Shown in pieces: positions 2,969 to 43,372 of a DNA stretch of 43,537 bases. Source of the stretch: an uncultured Gammaproteobacteria bacterium (GTDB taxonomy: Bacteria; Pseudomonadota; Gammaproteobacteria; Nitrosococcales; Methylophagaceae); assembly GCA_937900515.1 (NCBI GenBank), contig CALCCU010000231.1:1-43537 (forward strand), read 5' to 3'. Position numbers and translations under genes: made by a program. The notes under the pieces were generated by a model that was not told where the DNA came from, did no database searches, and worked only from the letters and a program-made list of their open reading frames with translations. Position 1 is the stretch's first letter. Every line of letters starts with the position of its first letter.

Positions 2969-3184
2969 TTACTCGTCGCTCAGCTCATGGTCTTTGCTCG
3001 GTCTGTACTGAAGTACATAACATTTATGCGCTTGATAAAAACTATTAGCAGATAAGCCTAATAAAATGACTGCACCAATCAAGGCTGGTACATCCTCACT
3101 AAAAAAGTAAAACATCGCTACAGCAGCGATAAGTTCACAGCTACCAATGACTTTGAGCAAGACAACATTTTCAATTCGCTTCAC
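2969..3184 (-). CDS. small two-helix membrane protein, unknown function
   Basis: A 71-residue protein that I do not recognise. It has a basic N-terminus (MKRIEN), two predicted membrane helices (about residues 7-28 and 33-50) joined by a short acidic turn (SEDVPA), and a polar C-terminal tail ending in acidic residues. The start appears to be GTG at 3184. It lies alone between uvrC and the divergent mfd gene. Real coding is supported by the coherent hydrophobic pattern and by the lack of any competing frame, but no family assignment is possible. Confidence 0.6.
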   Translation of the reverse strand: MKRIENVVLLKVIGSCELIAAVAMFYFFSEDVPALIGAVILLGLSANSFYQAHKCYVLQYRPSKDHELSDE

Positions 3185-3260
3185 ACTTATTTCTCCACGA
3201 TATAATTTAGTTTCGTATTATCACATACACAGTAAGGTTAATCATACGCTTTCCATAAAA

Positions 3261-3290
3261 TTGACCACACCGTAACAGTGAATCTATGAG
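3261..3290 (+). promoter_or_regulatory. possible sigma-70 promoter of mfd
   Basis: TTGACC (3261-3266) and TATGAG (3285-3290) are separated by 18 bases and end 30 bases before the mfd ATG. The -35 is good and the -10 is mediocre. This is a pattern match only. Confidence 0.4.
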
Positions 3291-3320
3291 AAAATAGCGC
3301 ATTTTTAGCAATAGTTAACT

Positions 3321-6300
3321 ATGTCCACTCTTAGCCCACTAAAGCCTAACATCCCCAAATCAGCACGAAATCAATATCGCGCAGGGCAACTCTATGGCAG
3401 TGCGCAAGGACTTCTATTAGCTAACACAGCCTTAGAACATGATGGGCCTGTACTCGTCTTGACCGATGATGCCAATACTGCCCATAAATTAGAAATTGAA
3501 GCACGTTTCTTTCTCAGTGAACACGACTTACCGATTTTGCATTTCCCTGACTGGGAAACCTTACCGTACGACTCTTTCTCGCCACACCAAGATATTATCT
3601 CTGAACGGTTAGAGACACTGCACCAACTACCCAATTTCAAACGCGGTATTTTAATGGTTCCAATCGCAACCATCATGCACCGCTTAGCACCGCGAGAATT
3701 TTTAGATGCCAATACCCTTCTATTAAAAACGGGCGATCAATTTGATATTGAACAATGGCGTATTAAATTAGAAAAAGCAGGCTATCGCTATGTATCTCAA
3801 GTTATGGAGCATGGTGAGTTTGCTGTCCGTGGGGCGATTATTGATCTCTATCCAATGGGTAGTAAATTACCATTTCGAATTGACTTGTTTGATGATGAAG
3901 TCGATACGCTGAGAACATTTGATCCTGAAACACAGCGTTCAATTGACACTATTGAATCAATTCAATTATTGCCCGCTCGTGAGTTCCCTGTCACTGATGA
4001 CAGTATTGCCCTATTCCGAAAACAATTTCGTGATGCTTTTGATGGTGATCCACAGCGCAGCCTAATATACCGCGAAGTATCAGAAGGTAATATGCCTGGC
4101 GGTATCGAATATTATCTACCGCTCTTTTTAGAAAAAACCAATAGTCTAATCGACTATTTACCTAGTAATACACTGCTATTTAATAGTAATGATCCTCATC
4201 ATGCTGCCACCAGCTTCTGGCAAGAAATTACTACTCGCTACCAACAACACAAAGTTGACCCTGAGAGACCGCTACTTGAACCACAACATATGTTCTTTCC
4301 AGTTGAAGACTTATTTGCAACGTTCAAACAATATCAACGTCTTCACAGTCAAACTTTTGAGCTTGATAGCAGTGCAGGCAATCACAATTACACCACAACA
4401 ATTCCACCACAATTAACCTTTAATGCACGTCAAGATCGCCCTTGTGATGCACTATTACAGTTTATTGATAATTTTGACGGTCGTATTTTATTTGCGGCTG
4501 AAACAGCCGGTCGCCGTGAGACTTTATTAGAGCTCCTACATGAAAACAGTATTCACCCCTCGCCCGTCACTAATTGGCAACAATTTATTACCGGTGATAC
4601 TGAACTTGGTATTACCGTAGCACCGCTAGAACAAGGACTTGTTCTGGCAAACGATAAATTAGCAGTCATTGCTGAACCACAACTATTTGGTCAGCAAGTC
4701 ATGCAGCGTCGACGTCGTAGTCGTAAAAAGCGCGATTCTGATGCGGTTATACGCAATCTTGCTGAACTCACCATTGGTGATGCCGTTGTACATGAAGATC
4801 ATGGTGTGGGTCGATACTTAGGTTTACAAACACTCGATGTCGGTGATGTAGCAACTGAATATGTCACATTAGAATATGCCAAAGAAGATAAACTCTATGT
4901 ACCCGTATCAGCCTTAGACTTAATTAGCCGTTATTCAGGCGCAGCACCTGAATTAGCACCACTTCACAAACTCGGTTCAGGTCAGTGGGAAAAAGCGAAA
5001 CGTAAAGCAGCAGAAAAAGTCCGCGATGTCGCGGCTGAATTACTCGATATTTATGCTCAACGTGCCGCCCATAAAAAACCTCCTCTTAATGAACCAGACG
5101 AGCATTACGCCTCTTTCGCAGCTGGCTTTCCATTTGAAACTACACCCGATCAGCAAGATGCTATTGATGATGTAGTAAAAGATATGACCTCAGATTCTCC
5201 GATGGATCGCCTTGTCTGTGGTGATGTGGGCTTTGGTAAAACAGAAGTTGCCATGCGTGCCGCCTTTTTAGCCACACAATCAGGTAAGCAAGTAATGGTA
5301 TTAGTCCCCACCACCCTGCTTGCTCAACAGCATTATGAAAACTTCAAAGATCGCTTTGCTGACTGGCCTGTGCAAATAGAAGTGATGTCTCGTTTCCGTT
5401 CTAAGAAGCAATTAGATTCGGTTAAAGAGTCAATGGCTGATGGCACAGCAGATATCATTATTGGTACGCACAAACTAATTCAGCAAGACATCAATCCAAA
5501 ACGTCTAGGTTTATTTATTCTCGACGAAGAACACCGTTTTGGCGTGACACAAAAAGAACAGATTAAAAAATACCGCTCCGAGATAGATGTACTGACTCTT
5601 ACAGCAACACCGATTCCTCGAACCTTAAATATGTCGATTTCAGGGATTCGCGATCTGTCTATTATCGCCACACCACCAGCACGTCGTTTAGCAATTAAAA
5701 CCTTTGTGCATGAATGGAATGGCGATAAAATTCGTGAAGGTATGCTGCGTGAAATTAAACGTGGTGGCCAAGTGTATTACTTACACAATAAAGTGGATGA
5801 TATTGATCGTGTTGCACGAGAAATTGAGCAACTGATTCCAGAAGCCAAAGTAACTGTAGCTCATGGTCAAATGCGTGAACGAGAATTAGAACAAGTGATG
5901 CTCGACTTCTATCATCAACGTTTCAATGTCTTGGTCTGCACCACCATTATCGAAACCGGTATTGATATTCCATCTGCCAACACAATCTTCATCGATCGTG
6001 CAGATAAACTCGGCTTAGCGCAGCTATATCAAATTCGTGGCCGTGTGGGTCGCTCGCATCATAGGGCTTATGCTTATCTCATCGTACCGCCGCGTAATGC
6101 CATGACCAAAGATGCAGTCAAACGTCTCGAAGCGATTGAGTCAATTGAAGATCTTGGTGCTGGTTTTACGCTGGCAACACACGATATGGAAATTCGTGGT
6201 GCAGGTGAATTATTAGGTGATGATCAAAGTGGTCAAATGCAAGAGATTGGCTTTGGTTTATATAATGAACTACTAGAACGTGCCGTTCACGCATTAAAAT

Positions 6301-37001: not shown

Positions 37002-37015
37002 TTTTAAGCTTTGCA

Positions 37016-37048
37016 CAAAAAAGCCTGCGATTGCGGGCTTTTTTTTGT
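37016..37048 (+). terminator. rho-independent terminator after rpmG
   Basis: AGCCTGC and GCGGGCT form a 7-bp stem (one G-U pair) around GATT, extended by AAAAA/TTTTT pairing and followed by eight T. It begins 14 bases after the rpmG stop and closes the ribosomal-protein operon. Confidence 0.9.
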
Positions 37049-37186: not shown

Positions 37187-38407
37187 ATGTCAGGAACCGC
37201 TATTTCCGACACAATTCTGATTGCACGACAACCGATTTTAGATAGTAAGCTGTCTATTTTTGCCTACGAGCTACTATTTAGAGGCAGCGATGTAAACGAA
37301 TCTTGCGTAGATGAATTTAACGGAGACTTAGCAACAACTCAAGTTATCAATAACGCTTTTATGGAGTTTGGCATTGAACGACTTATTGGCAATAAGCGCG
37401 CATTTATCAACTTAACTCAGTCCTATATCACAGGCGAGATAGAACTGCCCTTTGACCCTAGTCATGTTGTACTGGAGGTGCTTGAAGATATAGAAGTTAC
37501 TGATGAGGTTGTGTCAGGCATTCAAAAATATGCCGAACAAGGTTTCACCATCGCTCTAGATGACTTTATATATAGCGAAGAGCAACTCCCACTGATTGAA
37601 GTGGCATCGATTATTAAAATAGATATTTTAGCTTTAACTGAAGCAGAATTAATACAGCATGTCGCCTTACTTAAGACAAAAAATGTGAAATTACTCGCTG
37701 AAAAAGTCGAAACCTATGCGCAGTATGAGCAATGTAAAAATCTTGGGTTTGAGTATTTCCAAGGCTATTTTTTCTGTCAACCTAAACTTATTAACGGCAA
37801 AGCTCTTCCTGAGAATAAATTAGCTGTTTTACGTATTCTAAAAAACTTGCAGAACCCTGACGTTACAATGGAAGAAATTGAACACCTTATTCGCGAAGAT
37901 GTTTCTCTTAGTTTTAAATTGTTACGCCTACTCAACTCTGCTGCTGTCTGCCCTCCGAAACGAGTCGAATCGATCAAACAAGGCTTAATATTTTTAGGAC
38001 TTAAATCAATAAAGTCGTGGGCAACCGTGATTGCCTTTTCAGATCTAGAAGTAAAAATCACAGAACTCATGACGACGGCACTGATGCGCGCTAAAATGGC
38101 ATCTGAGCTCGCCACTTACTTTCAGTGTGATAAAGACGCCGCCTTTATCACTGGTTTATTTTCATTATTGGATGCTATCGCAGAGCTTCCTATGAAATCG
38201 ATTCTGCATTCGTTACTACTTGATGAAGACATCAATCATGCTTTATTACAAGAAGGCAAAACACCTCTCGGTGAATTATTATTATTTATAATCAAGTATG
38301 AAGGTGGTCACCTTGATGAAATTCCCTCAAACATCACCTTCACGCAGCTTAATAACGCTTATTTAGCTGCGACTGAATGGGTCAATATCGCAGAACAACA
38401 ACTCTAA
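37187..38407 (+). CDS. EAL-HDOD domain signalling protein (YuxH family)
   Basis: 406 residues. The N-terminal half (about 10-205) is an EAL-type domain: ARQPILDSKLSIFAYELLFRG (ExLxR at 28-32), N75, E97, DD at 125-126, K144, AEKVET at 171-176 and FQGYFFCQP. The usual DDFGTGYSS loop is replaced by DDFIYSEE and AEGVET by AEKVET, so cyclic-di-GMP hydrolysis is doubtful. The C-terminal half is an HDOD domain (SFKLLRLLNSA, SIKQGLIFLGLKSIKSW). Such proteins are usually signalling or regulatory scaffolds. ACAGGAA precedes the ATG. Only six bases separate its stop from the ABC ATPase, so it is the first gene of that operon. Confidence 0.88.
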   Translation: MSGTAISDTILIARQPILDSKLSIFAYELLFRGSDVNESCVDEFNGDLATTQVINNAFMEFGIERLIGNKRAFINLTQSYITGEIELPFDPSHVVLEVLEDIEVTDEVVSGIQKYAEQGFTIALDDFIYSEEQLPLIEVASIIKIDILALTEAELIQHVALLKTKNVKLLAEKVETYAQYEQCKNLGFEYFQGYFFCQPKLINGKALPENKLAVLRILKNLQNPDVTMEEIEHLIREDVSLSFKLLRLLNSAAVCPPKRVESIKQGLIFLGLKSIKSWATVIAFSDLEVKITELMTTALMRAKMASELATYFQCDKDAAFITGLFSLLDAIAELPMKSILHSLLLDEDINHALLQEGKTPLGELLLFIIKYEGGHLDEIPSNITFTQLNNAYLAATEWVNIAEQQL

Positions 38408-38413
38408 AAAATT

Positions 38414-39346
38414 ATGCCAGAACCATTACTCACAAGTCGTGAATTATCACGTCGATTCGGCGATAATACAGCCGTCAACAACGTCAGCTTCTCAATTCAG
38501 AAAGGCGAGGTGCTAGGGTTTTTAGGTCCCAATGGTGCAGGAAAAAGCACAACGATGAAAATGCTCAGTGGTAATCTGGCCCCCTCTCAAGGAGAAATTT
38601 TCATTAATGGTTATGATCTTCTATCACAACCAAAACAAGCAAAGGCTCATATTGGTTATTTACCTGAACAACCACCATTGTATAAAGAGCTAACAGTAAA
38701 AGAATTTTTATCTTTTTGTGCTCAAATAAATCAAATTCCCAGCTCAAAAGCTAAATTAGCGGTTGATACAGTCATTGAACGATGTGGACTTGATAATGTC
38801 ACTAAACGCCTTATTGCTAATTTATCAAAAGGCTTTCAACAACGAGTCGGCATAGCACAAGCTATTATCCATGCGCCTGCTGTTGTGATCCTTGATGAAC
38901 CGACATCAGGCCTAGATCCTATTCAAATCCGAGAAATCCGCCAATTGATTAGAGATGTTGCTAATGAACATAGCGTGATCTTGTCTACACATATTTTGCC
39001 TGAAGTCCAAATGCTTTGTGATCGTGTCCAAATCATTAATCAAGGACAACTGATTCTGAGTGATACGATTACCGGTCTCAGTCAGCATATGCAATCTTCA
39101 AGTCTACTCATTGAGCTCACCTCCCCACCGACTATCGATATTCTTAATGATATAAACGGGGTCATTAAAGTTGAAGCACTTAGAGAAAATAAATTCCGCC
39201 TGCATTACCAACCAGATACTGATCCAACTGATATATTAGTATCCAGTGCAGTACAAAACCAATGGCAACTCAAACTGCTCACTCCTGAACAGCATTCTTT
39301 AGAAGATGTCTTTATGAAAATTATTCAAACTGAGCAGGTTACCTAA
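38414..39346 (+). CDS. ABC transporter ATP-binding protein (GldA type)
   Basis: 310 residues. ATPase motifs: Walker A GPNGAGKST (38-46), signature LSKGFQQRVGIAQA, Walker B VVILDEPTSGLDP, and the switch histidine in LSTHILPEV. A C-terminal domain of about 80 residues (from SSLLIELTSPP) is typical of the GldA/NatA subgroup that pairs with an ABC-2 permease. Its stop overlaps the permease start by one base. It probably energises the complex formed with the next three products. The substrate is unknown. Confidence 0.92.
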   Translation: MPEPLLTSRELSRRFGDNTAVNNVSFSIQKGEVLGFLGPNGAGKSTTMKMLSGNLAPSQGEIFINGYDLLSQPKQAKAHIGYLPEQPPLYKELTVKEFLSFCAQINQIPSSKAKLAVDTVIERCGLDNVTKRLIANLSKGFQQRVGIAQAIIHAPAVVILDEPTSGLDPIQIREIRQLIRDVANEHSVILSTHILPEVQMLCDRVQIINQGQLILSDTITGLSQHMQSSSLLIELTSPPTIDILNDINGVIKVEALRENKFRLHYQPDTDPTDILVSSAVQNQWQLKLLTPEQHSLEDVFMKIIQTEQVT

Positions 39347-40086
39347 TGCTCACACTTGCTAAAAATGAACTATATCGTCTCTTCTTGTCGCCTCTCGCAT
39401 GGATAATCTTGGCATTAACACAGCTTATTCTTGCCTATTTATTTTTAACTCATATTGATTATTTTGTTCAAATCCAAGCTAAGATTGCCACCATTCCAGG
39501 AGCGCCAGGCCTAACGGAACTGGTAGCGATTCCCCTGCTTAATAACGCAGCAACCATATTGCTATTGATAACACCATTGATCACTATGCGTTTAATCGCT
39601 GAAGAAAGACGTAATGAAAGTTTACCGTTATTACTGTCAGCCCCTCTTTCTATGAGCCAAATTGTATTGGGTAAATTCATAGGGACATTCTGTTTTCTAT
39701 TACTCTTAGTAATTCTAGTCAGCCTAATGCCACTTTCACTCACTGTTGGTAGTAATCTTGATTTTGGTTTACTGCTATCAGGTATGCTTGGGCTAACACT
39801 TTTATTGTCCAGCTTTACTGCTATCGGTTTATTTCTATCTTCATTAACCAAGCAGCCTGCCATTGCCTCAATGACAACCTTCGCGAGTCTGTTCTTATTG
39901 TGGATCATTGACTGGGCAGGCAATAGTGAATCATCAGGCTTATTCAGCTGGCTTTCATTACTTCGCCATTACCAGCCATTACTACAAGGTGAAGTGAACA
40001 GCAGTGACATTAGTTATTATTTAATCGTTACCACCTTATTTTTGATTGTTACGATTCATCACCTAGACTCTGAACGTTTAAAATAA
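39346..40086 (+). CDS. ABC-2 type permease (GldF type)
   Basis: 246 residues, six membrane helices. The N-terminus MLTLAKNELYRLFLSPLAWIILAL and the loop LITMRLIAEERRNESLPLLLSAPLSMSQIVLGKF are the hallmarks of GldF-like ABC-2 permeases. The last helix ends just before HHLDSERLK. It is coupled to the ATPase gene upstream and abuts the GldG gene, whose ATG follows its stop codon directly. Confidence 0.9.
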   Translation: MLTLAKNELYRLFLSPLAWIILALTQLILAYLFLTHIDYFVQIQAKIATIPGAPGLTELVAIPLLNNAATILLLITPLITMRLIAEERRNESLPLLLSAPLSMSQIVLGKFIGTFCFLLLLVILVSLMPLSLTVGSNLDFGLLLSGMLGLTLLLSSFTAIGLFLSSLTKQPAIASMTTFASLFLLWIIDWAGNSESSGLFSWLSLLRHYQPLLQGEVNSSDISYYLIVTTLFLIVTIHHLDSERLK

Positions 40087-41454
40087 ATGAAAATCCAAAA
40101 AACAACACAACGTAATATCACCCTTCAAAATAGTATTTTTTATATTCTATTGATTGTTGTGGTCGTACTGCTTGCTCAAATATCTCTTAAGACTAATATG
40201 AGTAGTGATTGGACGAAAAACAGTCGTCATACCCTCTCTGAAACGACAATTGACTTCTTAAGCCAACTCGATCAACAAGTCACCATTCAAGCCTTTATAA
40301 GTCCTGATAATCAATACCATTCAGCACTAGAAAGTATACTGCGACGTTATCAGAATCATTCAAACCAACTACTCGTTGATTATATTGATCCTGATTTTTC
40401 ACCAACCTTAGTCAGAGAGCTCAATATTAAGCAGCAAGCAGAAATAGTCGTTTCACGTGGCGAACAACAAGTCCATGTCTTCGACTTATCTGAACAGTCA
40501 TTAACCAATGCCCTCATCAGCGTATCTCGTTCAAAAGAACAGTGGTTGGTATTTCTTGAGGGACATGGTGAACGAACACCTCTCGGTCAAGAAAATCACA
40601 ATTTGAATATTTGGGGCCAGCAGCTTAAACAGAAAGGGTTTAACTTCCTAGCACTCGACTTAGTCAGTCAGAGTCAGATCCCTAATAATACAGCCGTTAT
40701 CATTCTTGCCAGTCCAGAACGAACTCTACTGGACGGAGAAATATCGTTAATTAAGAACTATATTGATGACGGTGGAAATCTATTATTGTTAACCGATCCC
40801 AACACTCAACAATTTATTACCCCTCTTACCGAACAACTCAATCTAGAGTTTACCGATGGAACCGTTTTAGATCCAAACGCAGAGTTACTAGGTATTGCAG
40901 ATCCACGTTTTACATTAGTCAATGACTACGCAAACCACCCTGTCGGAAGAGCAGTTAAAAGTGTGACTCTTTTCCCTCAAGCTTCTGCAATTAATCCTAT
41001 AGAAAATAATAGCGAGTGGCAGCTTACACCTCTATTAAGAACGCAAAAAAGCACATGGGTTCATTCTGGTGAGATTGATGACAGTTTGAAGCAGGAGTTT
41101 AAATTTAATTCGGATGTTGATACTTCTGGGCCACTGAGTATTGCCTACTCATTAACCCGCCCTGTTATTAAACAAGGTGATAAGCAACAGCGTATTGCAG
41201 TTATTGGAGATAGTGATTTTATATCTAATTCTTATATTGGTAATGGCGCAAACCTCGAACTCGGCATGGCTCTCGTCAACTGGTTAGTGGGTGATGACCA
41301 GCTAATATCTATCCCGGTCAAAACAACTGTTGATGCTGAATTAAACTTATCGAAAACCCAGTCACTCATTATAGGTTTAGGTTTTTTAATCGTTTTACCT
41401 TTAGTACTATTTGTAACTGGTTTCATTATCTGGCGGAAACGACGCCAACGATGA
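40087..41454 (+). CDS. GldG-family ABC-associated periplasmic protein
   Basis: 455 residues. An N-terminal helix (about 18-34) and a C-terminal helix (about 427-448, LIIGLGFLIVLPLVLFVTGF) bracket a large periplasmic region with the GldG/ABC_transp_aux features: SRHTLSETTIDFLSQLDQQVTIQAF, LISVSRSKEQWLVFLEGHGERTP, LLDGEISLIKNYIDDGGNLLLLTDP and RIAVIGDSDFISNSYIGNG. In gliding Bacteroidetes GldG joins GldA and GldF. In proteobacteria the role of the homologous set is not known. It overlaps the DUF4340 gene by four bases. Confidence 0.88.
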   Translation: MKIQKTTQRNITLQNSIFYILLIVVVVLLAQISLKTNMSSDWTKNSRHTLSETTIDFLSQLDQQVTIQAFISPDNQYHSALESILRRYQNHSNQLLVDYIDPDFSPTLVRELNIKQQAEIVVSRGEQQVHVFDLSEQSLTNALISVSRSKEQWLVFLEGHGERTPLGQENHNLNIWGQQLKQKGFNFLALDLVSQSQIPNNTAVIILASPERTLLDGEISLIKNYIDDGGNLLLLTDPNTQQFITPLTEQLNLEFTDGTVLDPNAELLGIADPRFTLVNDYANHPVGRAVKSVTLFPQASAINPIENNSEWQLTPLLRTQKSTWVHSGEIDDSLKQEFKFNSDVDTSGPLSIAYSLTRPVIKQGDKQQRIAVIGDSDFISNSYIGNGANLELGMALVNWLVGDDQLISIPVKTTVDAELNLSKTQSLIIGLGFLIVLPLVLFVTGFIIWRKRRQR

Positions 41455-42332
41455 AAAAACAAATAATTATTAATCTAGCATTAGTGCTCGGCATTGCCGT
41501 ACTCGTTTTGTACCTCAACAAACCTCCTACTGAAACTGTTAAGCAACATTCAATATCTGCAGTTAAATCGGCAACAATTTCGTCGATTTTTATTTACAGA
41601 GAACAACGCGAAACCATTCATCTTGTAAAGAAAGATATTGGATGGCACATTATCCAACCTATCAAAGCCAAGGCTAATGATGTTCGGATTAGCTTATTGC
41701 TAGATCTATTATCGACGAGACCTAAAAGTCATTTTAAACTGACTCACGAAACAGACTTACATCCATTTGGACTTGGCTCAGCCAGCTTGTCAGTTCGACT
41801 TAATGACGAAGAGTTTCAATTTGGAAATATTGAAACACTAAATAAGTTACGCTATGTCAAACATAATGAGGTCGTTTATCTCATTAAAGATACATTAGCC
41901 CCGCTTCTTAACGCCTCAGCGGCAAGCTTTATTGATAATCGACTTGTCCCATCACCATCTAAGATATCTAGGTTAGAGCTCCCTTTACTCGATCTCAATA
42001 CCGATAAAAATAACCTTGATAAACTCTCAATGACTCTTTCAGATGGTCATTGGTCCAGCAATATGCCAAGCCTCTCGAGCGATACCTTAGTAGAAATTGC
42101 CAGCTCATGGCAACAAGCCTATGCTATGCAAGTAATTCAGGTCTCGGAGCAATCACTACAAAATCTTACTGGGCAGAAAGTACTTATCAACTATACTAAT
42201 ACTCCTCCATCAGAATTCATTTTACAGCTATCAGCTACGAATTTAAGTTTGATTAACTCAGCAGCACGACTAAAATATCAGTTCCCCATTGCTATGAAAC
42301 ATAAATTATTTGTACACACTGAGTCTAACTAA
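41451..42332 (+). CDS. DUF4340 domain protein
   Basis: 293 residues. One N-terminal membrane helix (about 5-22, IINLALVLGIAVLVLYLNKPP) and a periplasmic beta-rich region. VKKDIGWHIIQPIKAKANDVRISLLLDLLSTRPKSHF and FGLGSASLSVRLNDEEFQFGN are the repeat units of DUF4340. Members usually follow GldG in operons, as here. The stop shares one base with the mutM start. No enzymatic motif is seen; it is probably an accessory envelope part of the ABC system. Confidence 0.82.
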   Translation: MKKQIIINLALVLGIAVLVLYLNKPPTETVKQHSISAVKSATISSIFIYREQRETIHLVKKDIGWHIIQPIKAKANDVRISLLLDLLSTRPKSHFKLTHETDLHPFGLGSASLSVRLNDEEFQFGNIETLNKLRYVKHNEVVYLIKDTLAPLLNASAASFIDNRLVPSPSKISRLELPLLDLNTDKNNLDKLSMTLSDGHWSSNMPSLSSDTLVEIASSWQQAYAMQVIQVSEQSLQNLTGQKVLINYTNTPPSEFILQLSATNLSLINSAARLKYQFPIAMKHKLFVHTESN

Positions 42333-43153
42333 TGCCTGAATTACCTGAAGTTGAAACTACCCGTAGGGGCATTGCACCTCATATTCAATCACAGAAAATT
42401 ATTGCTGTGACCGTTAGGAATAATAAATTAAGGTGGCCTATTCCTAAAGATCTTGCCGATACACTCCAAAATCAATCCATACACAATGTTAGTCGAAGAG
42501 CTAAATATCTACTACTCAAGTGCGACTCAGGCACATTAATTATTCATCTAGGTATGTCAGGTCACCTACAAATAATTGAGGATGCATCACTCGTTGGAAA
42601 GCATGACCATGTAGACATTCTGTTTGATAATGGTTTGACCCTTCGCTACACTGATCCTAGACGCTTTGGCGCGATGTTATGGTCTGACAAAACAGATATA
42701 AATTCACACCCACTCCTGAATAAACTAGGTCCAGAGCCGTTATCAGATGACTTTTCATTGGACTACCTATTGCGTGTTGCTGCTGGCCGTCGAGTTCCTA
42801 TCAAAACATTCATTATGAATGGAAACTATGTAGTCGGAGCAGGCAATATCTATGCGAATGAATCATTATTTTTAGCTGGAGTTCACCCTAAAACACCTGC
42901 AGGTGATTTATCTAAGCAACAATATGAAAAGTTACTTGCAGCGATAAAAAAAGTATTAGAAAAAGCCATTACAGCAGGCGGAACAACGCTAAAAGACTTC
43001 AAAAAAAGTGATGGTAAGCCAGGTTATTTTGCTCAGCAACTTAATGTGTATGGCAGAGAGCATGAAGCTTGCCCTCTGTGTGGTTCAGAAATTATTCAAT
43101 ATAAAGAAGCACAAAGGGCAACCTATTATTGCCCTTTGTGCCAAACTCTTTAA
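42332..43153 (+). CDS. mutM: formamidopyrimidine-DNA glycosylase
   Basis: 273 residues. It removes 8-oxoguanine and ring-opened purines and nicks the abasic site. The N-terminal catalytic Pro2-Glu3 (MPELPEVETTRRG), Lys58 (RRAKYLLL), the helix-two-turn-helix (VVGAGNIYANESLF) and the C-terminal zinc finger (C247, C250, C267, C270, with the intervening QRATYY containing the conserved Arg) are all present. It shares one base with the DUF4340 stop, so it is translated as the end of the Gld-type operon. In E. coli it follows rpmBG directly. Confidence 0.97.
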   Translation: MPELPEVETTRRGIAPHIQSQKIIAVTVRNNKLRWPIPKDLADTLQNQSIHNVSRRAKYLLLKCDSGTLIIHLGMSGHLQIIEDASLVGKHDHVDILFDNGLTLRYTDPRRFGAMLWSDKTDINSHPLLNKLGPEPLSDDFSLDYLLRVAAGRRVPIKTFIMNGNYVVGAGNIYANESLFLAGVHPKTPAGDLSKQQYEKLLAAIKKVLEKAITAGGTTLKDFKKSDGKPGYFAQQLNVYGREHEACPLCGSEIIQYKEAQRATYYCPLCQTL

Positions 43154-43159
43154 TCAGGT

Positions 43160-43372
43160 TTAACCTAAAACAACGACATCTTCTGCCTGCCAACCTTTAT
43201 CGCCTTTTACGGCCTTAAATTCTACTTTCTGGCCATCATTTAATGATTTAAAGCCTTCACCTTGGATTGCACGGAAATGAACAAATACATCATCTCCATC
43301 TGCTTGCTCTAAAAAACCAAAGCCTTTGTCTGCGTTAAACCATTTAACAGTGCCAGTTATCTTGTCAGCCAT
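43160..43372 (-). CDS. cold-shock-domain protein
   Basis: 70 residues, one CspA-type OB fold. RNP1 is KGFGFLEQ (16-23), RNP2 is DVFVHF (28-33), and the typical end is [14 protein letters not shown]. It binds single-stranded RNA or DNA. AGAGAG lies before the ATG. The gene converges on mutM with six bases between stops and no evident terminator. The 165-base upstream region is AT-rich and could hold a long leader, but I see no clear promoter in it. Which Csp paralogue this is cannot be said. Confidence 0.93.

Follow-up and report, generated by a model that had tools for sequence, protein, structure and literature searches.

A Gld-type transporter block ahead of mutM is probably an old operon of the Gammaproteobacteria

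The locus between rpmBG and mutM

Herein we characterize a block of five genes, encoding an EAL-HDOD protein and a four-gene Gld-type ATP-binding cassette (ABC) system, which lies between the ribosomal protein genes rpmB-rpmG (rpmBG) and the DNA repair gene mutM in an uncultured gammaproteobacterium of the Methylophagaceae. The window, i.e., the whole stretch of 43,537 nucleotides (nt) that was analysed, is contig C231 of a 2.75-Mb assembly of 289 contigs, and among named records it is closest to genomes of Methylophaga, of Methylophagaceae and of unclassified gammaproteobacteria, with GldG identities of 51–64% among the best 19 matches. All genes of the locus are on the forward strand. The genes rpmB (50S L28, 36597–36833; PF00830 at 102 bits, TIGR00009) and rpmG (50S L33, 36846–37001; PF00471, TIGR01023) are followed by an intrinsic terminator (37013–37048, forward strand), and the block then runs through the genes for the EAL-HDOD protein (406 residues, 37187–38407; EAL PF00563 at 46.6 bits against a cut-off of 31.3, HDOD PF08668 at 67.4 against 22.9), a GldA-like ABC ATPase (310 residues, 38414–39346; PF00005 at 122 bits, best NCBIfam match TIGR03522 GldA), a GldF-like ABC-2 permease (246 residues, 39346–40086; PF12679 at 50.6 bits, TIGR03518 GldF), a GldG-like auxiliary subunit with a GIFT-type domain (455 residues, 40087–41454; PF09822 at 101 bits, PF23357) and a DUF4340 protein (293 residues, 41451–42332; PF14238 at 49.4 bits against a cut-off of 25). 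The last gene, after the block, is mutM (fpg, 42332–43153), the product of which scored 325.2 bits with TIGR00577 (cut-off 203.3) and 358 bits with PRK01103, with PF01149, PF06831 and PF06827 (Fapy_DNA_glyco, H2TH and zinc finger) all above cut-off. According to the open reading frames and the sequence, 6 nt separate the EAL-HDOD gene from gldA, gldA and gldF overlap by 1 nt, gldG follows gldF without a gap, gldG and DUF4340 overlap by 4 nt, and DUF4340 and mutM overlap by 1 nt, the base that the DUF4340 stop codon has in common with the mutM ATG (TAATG). The initial annotation, made from the letters of the window alone, had placed five genes (EAL-HDOD, gldA, gldF, gldG and DUF4340) between rpmBG and mutM, and its coordinates proved exact, with every gap at most 6 nt or an overlap.

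The three transporter genes are adjacent and their products exceed the cut-offs of PF00005, PF12679 and PF09822, which makes this a Gld-type ABC system in the broad sense, but each protein falls below the corresponding equivalog cut-off (GldA-like: TIGR03522, 319.1 vs. 402.6; GldF-like: TIGR03518, 100.8 vs. 288.5; GldG-like: TIGR03521, 61.6 vs. 389.85). No match to the type IX secretion partner SprA_N (PF14349) was found in the genome of the window, nor in any of 14 control genomes, and PADLOC matched only the ATPase, to ATPase-type models, leaving the other four block proteins without a match. The AlphaFold model of GldG (predicted local distance difference test, pLDDT, 86.7) has a GIFT-type domain between two long terminal helices, and it matches the N-terminal domain of IFT52 (5fms; Foldseek E 4e-10), in line with Pfam sequence matches to IFT52_GIFT, OST48_N and DUF4350. 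The DUF4340 model (pLDDT 94.4) consists of an N-terminal helix and two tandem repeats with a repeated strand and helix order (hhalign probability of repeat 1 against repeat 2: 80). Judging from the model, the long N-terminal helix is presumably a transmembrane anchor, and the protein would thus be membrane anchored. Against solved structures, DUF4340 gave no Foldseek match at E ≤ 0.001, and its sequence search reached a best E of only 0.81. Sliding-clamp matches (TM-score 0.15–0.20) were set aside as noise, VIA matches (4q0y, Z 6.7 for repeat 2; YycH, Z 4.7) lay in a middling range only, and a mutual relationship of GldG and DUF4340 was unsupported (probability 0.9).

Linkage of gldG and mutM across the class

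The conservation of the block was assessed in 151 genomes of the class, to which each family contributed one and the window's family two. Of these, 135 have mutM, 142 have rpmB and 81 have a clear gldG; the gldG set excludes three weak gldG-like matches of 36–39 bits (G078, G083, G116; 84 with them). Of the 80 genomes with both gldG and mutM, 69, representing 68 families, carry gldG in the same orientation as mutM and at most 5 kb upstream of it, and the initial proposal that the two belong together is thus borne out as a strongly conserved linkage. Among these 69, gldG and mutM are separated by room for about one gene in 45 genomes, by at most 130 nt in 13 and by 1.2–5 kb in 11. In 67 of a second set of 80 named loci, mutM follows gldG at a distance of at most 5 kb, while five end too early. 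Since some of these loci recur, on identical contigs, in the genome sample, the two sets were never summed. Pairwise distances of GldG and MutM, computed for the 56 of the 80 named loci that passed score thresholds, correlated at r = 0.72, a value that none of 999 permutations reached, which fits vertical inheritance of the two genes together.

Outside the class, a phylum sample contained 33 genomes with gldG, 30 of them with mutM, and linkage was seen in none of the 30; three had both genes on one contig at least 17 kb apart and 27 had them on different contigs, so that a few cases are undecidable, and in at least four (G241, G269, G300, G324) mutM lies less than 5 kb from the contig start on its upstream side, where linkage is possible. 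Two in-class genomes newly met in this sample (G286, G337) have gldG and mutM linked. Of 36 genomes of the window's own family, 32 carry gldG; the gene is missing in four, two of them small and 99–100% complete, so that loss of gld does happen. In the 13 class genomes with gldG within 130 nt of mutM (G042, G076, G130 and G131 among them) DUF4340 is absent or unrecognised, and in three named loci (L110, L144, L154) gldG lies 1, 94 and 3 nt from mutM.

The rpmG–mutM interval and its reduced forms

The rpmG–mutM interval was compared across relatives, a check named in advance. Forty class loci were fetched, comprising 26 gld-positive and 14 gld-less; the former come from 36 gld-positive genomes with rpmB 3–12 kb upstream of mutM, a further four of which were represented by earlier loci or the window and six of which were left out. 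The interval reads, in order, desaturase (reverse strand), EAL-HDOD (forward), hydantoinase/oxoprolinase (reverse), GGDEF (reverse; a protoglobin-GGDEF protein where annotated), gldA, gldF, gldG, DUF4340 and mutM. Wherever members of this one list occur in the fetched loci they keep its order, some loci having additional genes, and no order-breaking locus was seen among them. The block of the Methylophagaceae is one reduced form of this longer interval. Eight of the 14 gld-less loci keep other members of the list: desaturase, EAL-HDOD and hydantoinase in L172, hydantoinase in L160, L162 and L164, and desaturase in L167, L170, L171 and L161, the last of which is outside the interval table as its rpmG was unrecognised and its desaturase-like gene was read by eye. 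One further gld-less locus (L163) holds a DUF4340-related gene, described below. A chorismatase-like gene (FkbO/Hyg5-like, 3121–4128) stands alone before mutM in L169, L165 has unrelated small genes and L159 has no recognised gene in the interval. True abutment of rpmG and mutM, the E. coli type, was found in two of the 14 (L166, 33 nt; L168, 88 nt).

At the level of families, 126 class genomes have both rpmB and mutM; in 13 of these, none of them with a clear gldG, rpmB lies within 3 kb upstream of mutM, and in 58 it is on a different contig. Split by gldG, the close arrangement occurs in 0 of 74 clear-gldG genomes (36 at 3–12 kb, 30 on another contig) and in 13 of 52 gld-less genomes (28 on another contig). 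The direct succession of rpmBG and mutM, initially ascribed to many Gammaproteobacteria, is thus uncommon in this sample, and the reading that the block intrudes into a normal rpmBG–mutM pair is unsupported: the block, or a longer interval, is the common state in the sample and probably the ancestral one, the short spacing being probably derived.

The EAL-HDOD gene is an optional member. Within the window's family it occurs in 17 of the 25 loci that allow a decision; in this family the opposite-strand genes are missing and the EAL-HDOD gene, if it survives, therefore touches gldA; it was found in eight of the 26 gld-positive class loci, seven of them with the opposite-strand hydantoinase gene between it and gldA. 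A signalling component of the block, as first suggested, is accordingly not general, given that the gene is missing in eight of 25 family loci. Several further observations were made on these genes. EAL-HDOD occurs as a tandem pair in L088 (3857–6479), is broken into four fragments in Methylophaga sulfidovorans (L094, 6652–7315) and has a second, similar match in the window's genome (G000, contig C112, 59108–59896; 34% identity over residues 142–404). Seven loci (L116, L125, L128, L129, L194, L195, L196) combine an EAL-HDOD gene with an opposite-strand GGDEF gene before gldA, the GGDEF protein of L196 being protoglobin-GGDEF, and two cyclic di-GMP-type genes thus share one site in these loci. 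The interval desaturase of L185 (2563–3768) carries a C-terminal DDE_Tnp_ISL3 match (Pfam, E 1.5e-10, residues 281–395), which is odd for a desaturase, and in the gld-positive L186 a chorismatase gene (3321–4343) lies between gldG and mutM.

A one-repeat relic of DUF4340 beside mutM

The gld-less genome G179 (also handled as L163, L199 and L224) has an unannotated gene of ~160 residues between rpmG and mutM, hereafter the relic. Relatives were found in 51 of 59 genomes of its family and, by a profile search with some weak matches, in 52 of 119 genomes from 11 families of its order; a search of the class sample with a single relic protein found G179 strongly and three other genomes weakly (4 of 151), that sample including none of the ten further families in which the order-level search located carriers. 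Of 25 family loci fetched (relic loci are L199–L243), 24 have mutM downstream on the same strand and 20 have rpmG upstream, while L213 shows no mutM; the relic–mutM distance in the 24 is at most 54 nt in 16 and 908–980 nt in eight. The 20 order-level loci, from seven families, all have mutM downstream, and rpmG was seen upstream in 18.

No family in Pfam or NCBIfam matched more than four of 24 relic members, all weakly, and PF14238 was absent from their matches at E 0.1, which places the relic outside Pfam DUF4340 membership. Profile comparison of the relic with DUF4340 gave an hhalign probability of 98.3 (E 2e-14); an earlier build gave 97.8, against 1.0 or less for eight unrelated families. 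Single members varied, some reaching E 2e-14 with the DUF4340 model and others falling below significance, with a match listed for 20 of 25. The likeness is to repeat 2 of DUF4340 (probability 98.5) and not to repeat 1 (5.5), and includes an aligned tryptophan pair 19 residues apart (W201/W220 in DUF4340, W69/W88 in the relic). On these sequence comparisons the relic is a homologue of the mutM-proximal repeat and is likely derived from DUF4340. Where the transporter is absent, half a gene survives beside mutM with its own N-terminal helix.

Transcription units

The hairpin and T-run directly 3′ of rpmG fold at −18.8 kcal/mol (z −3.76), a value matched by none of 200 shuffles. The generic scanner did not list this terminator. 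A simple terminator finder detected a hairpin and T-run within the 90 nt after rpmG in 34 of 36 named loci holding this gene; the exceptions are L081, where a near match is visible by eye, and L088, where none was seen. Under the same rules, control stretches gave one hit among 79 taken after gldG, and none among 71 after DUF4340, 63 after mutM or 79 from within gldG. Because of this strong terminator and a 185-nt gap ahead of EAL-HDOD, rpmBG and the gld block are probably separate transcription units, and the conservation of the terminator suggests that the block together with mutM is probably an operon of its own, with a single transcript predicted from sequence. The junction between DUF4340 and mutM, available in 63 named loci, is an overlap in 22, 0–20 nt in 23, 21–100 nt in 12 and above 100 nt in six. 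With such tight or overlapping junctions and the near absence of terminators within the block of relatives, the initial reading of block and mutM as one transcription unit is supported.

Downstream of the block, a cold-shock-protein gene (csp, 43160–43372, reverse strand; PF00313 at 95 bits) converges on mutM. A hairpin within the last mutM codons (43108–43142, zinc-finger region) is terminator-like on the other strand, facing csp, and was seen in the window and in six of 11 family loci with an adjoining csp (L046, L049, L054, L076, L077, L078); among loci without csp, a repeat was present only in L074, where it is unrelated and 8 bp long.

Loss or insertion, and the meaning of the linkage

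The direction of change was addressed with a tree of concatenated MutM, RpmB and RpmG (54 rows), including eight relic rows (L163 and seven of the 20 order-level loci). The relic rows group in one clade (support 98), the neighbour of which is a gld-positive row (89). The remaining 13 gld-less rows lie dispersed over the tree, requiring 11 changes, four of them forced by starred branches, against a shuffled mean of 11.8; the gld label overall is somewhat clustered (12 changes vs. a shuffled mean of 17.0). The tree thus supports, without proving, repeated loss of gld. Because ordered remnants, relic and tree all point the same way, loss from an ancestral order is the best reading: the gld block probably stood at the rpmBG–mutM site ancestrally, and the E. 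coli-type rpmBG–mutM pair would be a collapsed end state. The converse, in which a gld operon was placed once or several times into an original rpmBG–mutM pair, would account for rpmBG–mutM without gld in E. coli and others, as PMC4725251 describes, and for gld beside mutM being unseen outside the class. We nevertheless consider insertion unlikely, since eight of 14 gld-less loci retain desaturase, EAL-HDOD or hydantoinase in the same order and place, which are traces of loss rather than a virgin site, relic carriers keep half of DUF4340 there, and the tree, weak as it is, mixes gld-positive with gld-less rows.

As to why gld and mutM stay together, a chance neighbourhood of co-directional genes without a shared transcript is very improbable: the 12 and six junctions at 21–100 nt and above 100 nt would suit it, but 45 of 63 overlap or lie within 20 nt, the linkage recurs in 69 of 80 genomes from distant families, and terminators are virtually lacking after gldG and DUF4340. 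A functional coupling, in which the Gld-type system and MutM serve one response (e.g., to envelope or oxidative stress) and DUF4340, chiefly its repeat 2, signals to MutM or controls its supply, draws on the same breadth of linkage (69 genomes, 68 families), on the retained piece in the relic order being the DUF4340 half beside mutM, and on the 13 of 80 genomes in which gldG lies so close to mutM (130 nt or less) that DUF4340 would not fit between them. Yet the long helix of DUF4340 is presumably the membrane anchor of a periplasmic protein, whereas MutM would be cytosolic; the linkage is unseen outside the class, and retained co-expression explains the same facts. We therefore regard such coupling as improbable, though less so than chance or insertion. 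Its more specific form, that DUF4340 or the relic is a membrane-anchored factor on which MutM expression or activity depends and for which the E. coli RpmG–MutM link is a late substitute, is doubtful to almost the same degree; if true, repair of oxidised guanine in Gammaproteobacteria would be linked to how the envelope fares. Inherited co-expression is a simpler explanation than a link between the envelope and 8-oxoguanine repair.

The explanation we favour is probably correct: gldA-gldF-gldG-DUF4340-mutM is an old gammaproteobacterial operon in which mutM came to depend on the upstream unit and from which gld was later lost in some lineages. A number of observations weigh against it. In the 11 class genomes without linkage, gldG and mutM are 7.2 kb apart (one), 37 kb apart (one) or on different contigs (nine), and mutM was unseen in eight of 80 named loci despite at least 3 kb of sequence after gldG. 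The tree is weak, with 8 of 51 inner branches starred, an unknown root, some long branches meeting and only seven of the 20 order-level relic loci included. A promoter scan of the region found 19 candidates against 21.8 expected, no better than shuffles. The Shine-Dalgarno sequence of mutM is weak: −4.5 kcal/mol or lower was reached in none of 21 Methylophagaceae loci, against 94% of 17 for rpmB. However, it is likewise weak in genomes that lack gld (3 of 14) or carry the relic (3 of 24), which makes poor initiation a property of mutM in general; as a test of translational coupling it does not discriminate and is thus no proof of coupling.

Under the favoured operon model, gldA-gldF-gldG-DUF4340 would specify an envelope transporter of ABC-2 type, in which GldG contributes a GIFT domain and the DUF4340 protein is membrane anchored and built of two repeats. 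Such a transporter likely moves or assembles an envelope component; that it is specifically an exporter or extractor of one is a tentative proposal. As the last cistron, mutM would be read by transcription through the block, aided in the window's genome by the stop/start overlap. The ancestral order was probably rpmB-rpmG-terminator-[desaturase]-[EAL-HDOD]-[hydantoinase]-[GGDEF]-gldAFG-DUF4340-mutM, bracketed genes being members of the interval, and lineages would have shed its members in varied combinations with the order unchanged. Since mutM expression would depend on whichever unit stands upstream, loss of gld may have been tolerated only where mutM stayed behind another leader or promoter, be it rpmBG, the relic or a promoter region that belongs to a divergently transcribed gene. 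If so, mutM gains an older genomic partner than rpmBG, which calls for caution in reading function into the gene order of E. coli. In addition, an uncharacterised envelope ABC system found in many gammaproteobacterial families proves to recur at a single genomic site, and the unannotated relic family acquires a relative and a likely origin; the half-gene retained beside mutM makes the choice between co-expression alone and a functional link directly testable.

Comparison with known systems

YycH-type proteins are membrane-anchored regulators, and repeat 1 of DUF4340 has a weak VIA match to YycH (2fgt; Z 4.7, root-mean-square deviation 4.4 over 98 residues); this Z is in the range of common arrangements, and the likeness is structural only. 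A DUF4340 domain is recorded as essential in a Verrucomicrobium protein (PMC12283558). The GldA-GldF-GldG system of Flavobacterium gliding (PMC9127263) shares with the window an ATPase, a permease and a GldG-like subunit, for which GldA, GldF and GldG are the best NCBIfam matches; it differs in that the window proteins are all below the equivalog cut-offs and that DUF4340 and mutM complete the cluster. Gld homologues have also been recorded in Thiothrix nivea (PMC3368414). The window GldG resembles the GIFT-domain family (IFT52, OST48, DUF4350 and archaeal arCOG01314) in structure and Pfam matches but stands in a bacterial ABC context, with no link to cilium or glycosylation; GldG-like proteins occur in archaea according to the same source (PMC5898192). 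Searches of open-licence PubMed Central papers, one of them covering the best 12 of 98 matches, found none on a gld–mutM cluster and none that combines two of mutM, GldG and DUF4340. The gene mutM is noted to flank the O-antigen region in two Vibrio species (PMC7232310).

The closest counterpart of the locus is the E. coli operon yicR-rpmB-rpmG-mutM, for which PMC4725251 ties the rpmG-mutM order to a functional link. The flanking genes, their order and their direction are the same, but rpmG adjoins mutM in E. coli, whereas the window has 5.3 kb, one terminator and five genes between them. The RpmG–MutM phenotype of E. coli is uncontradicted by our results, while the adjacency of the two genes looks secondary at the scale of the class.

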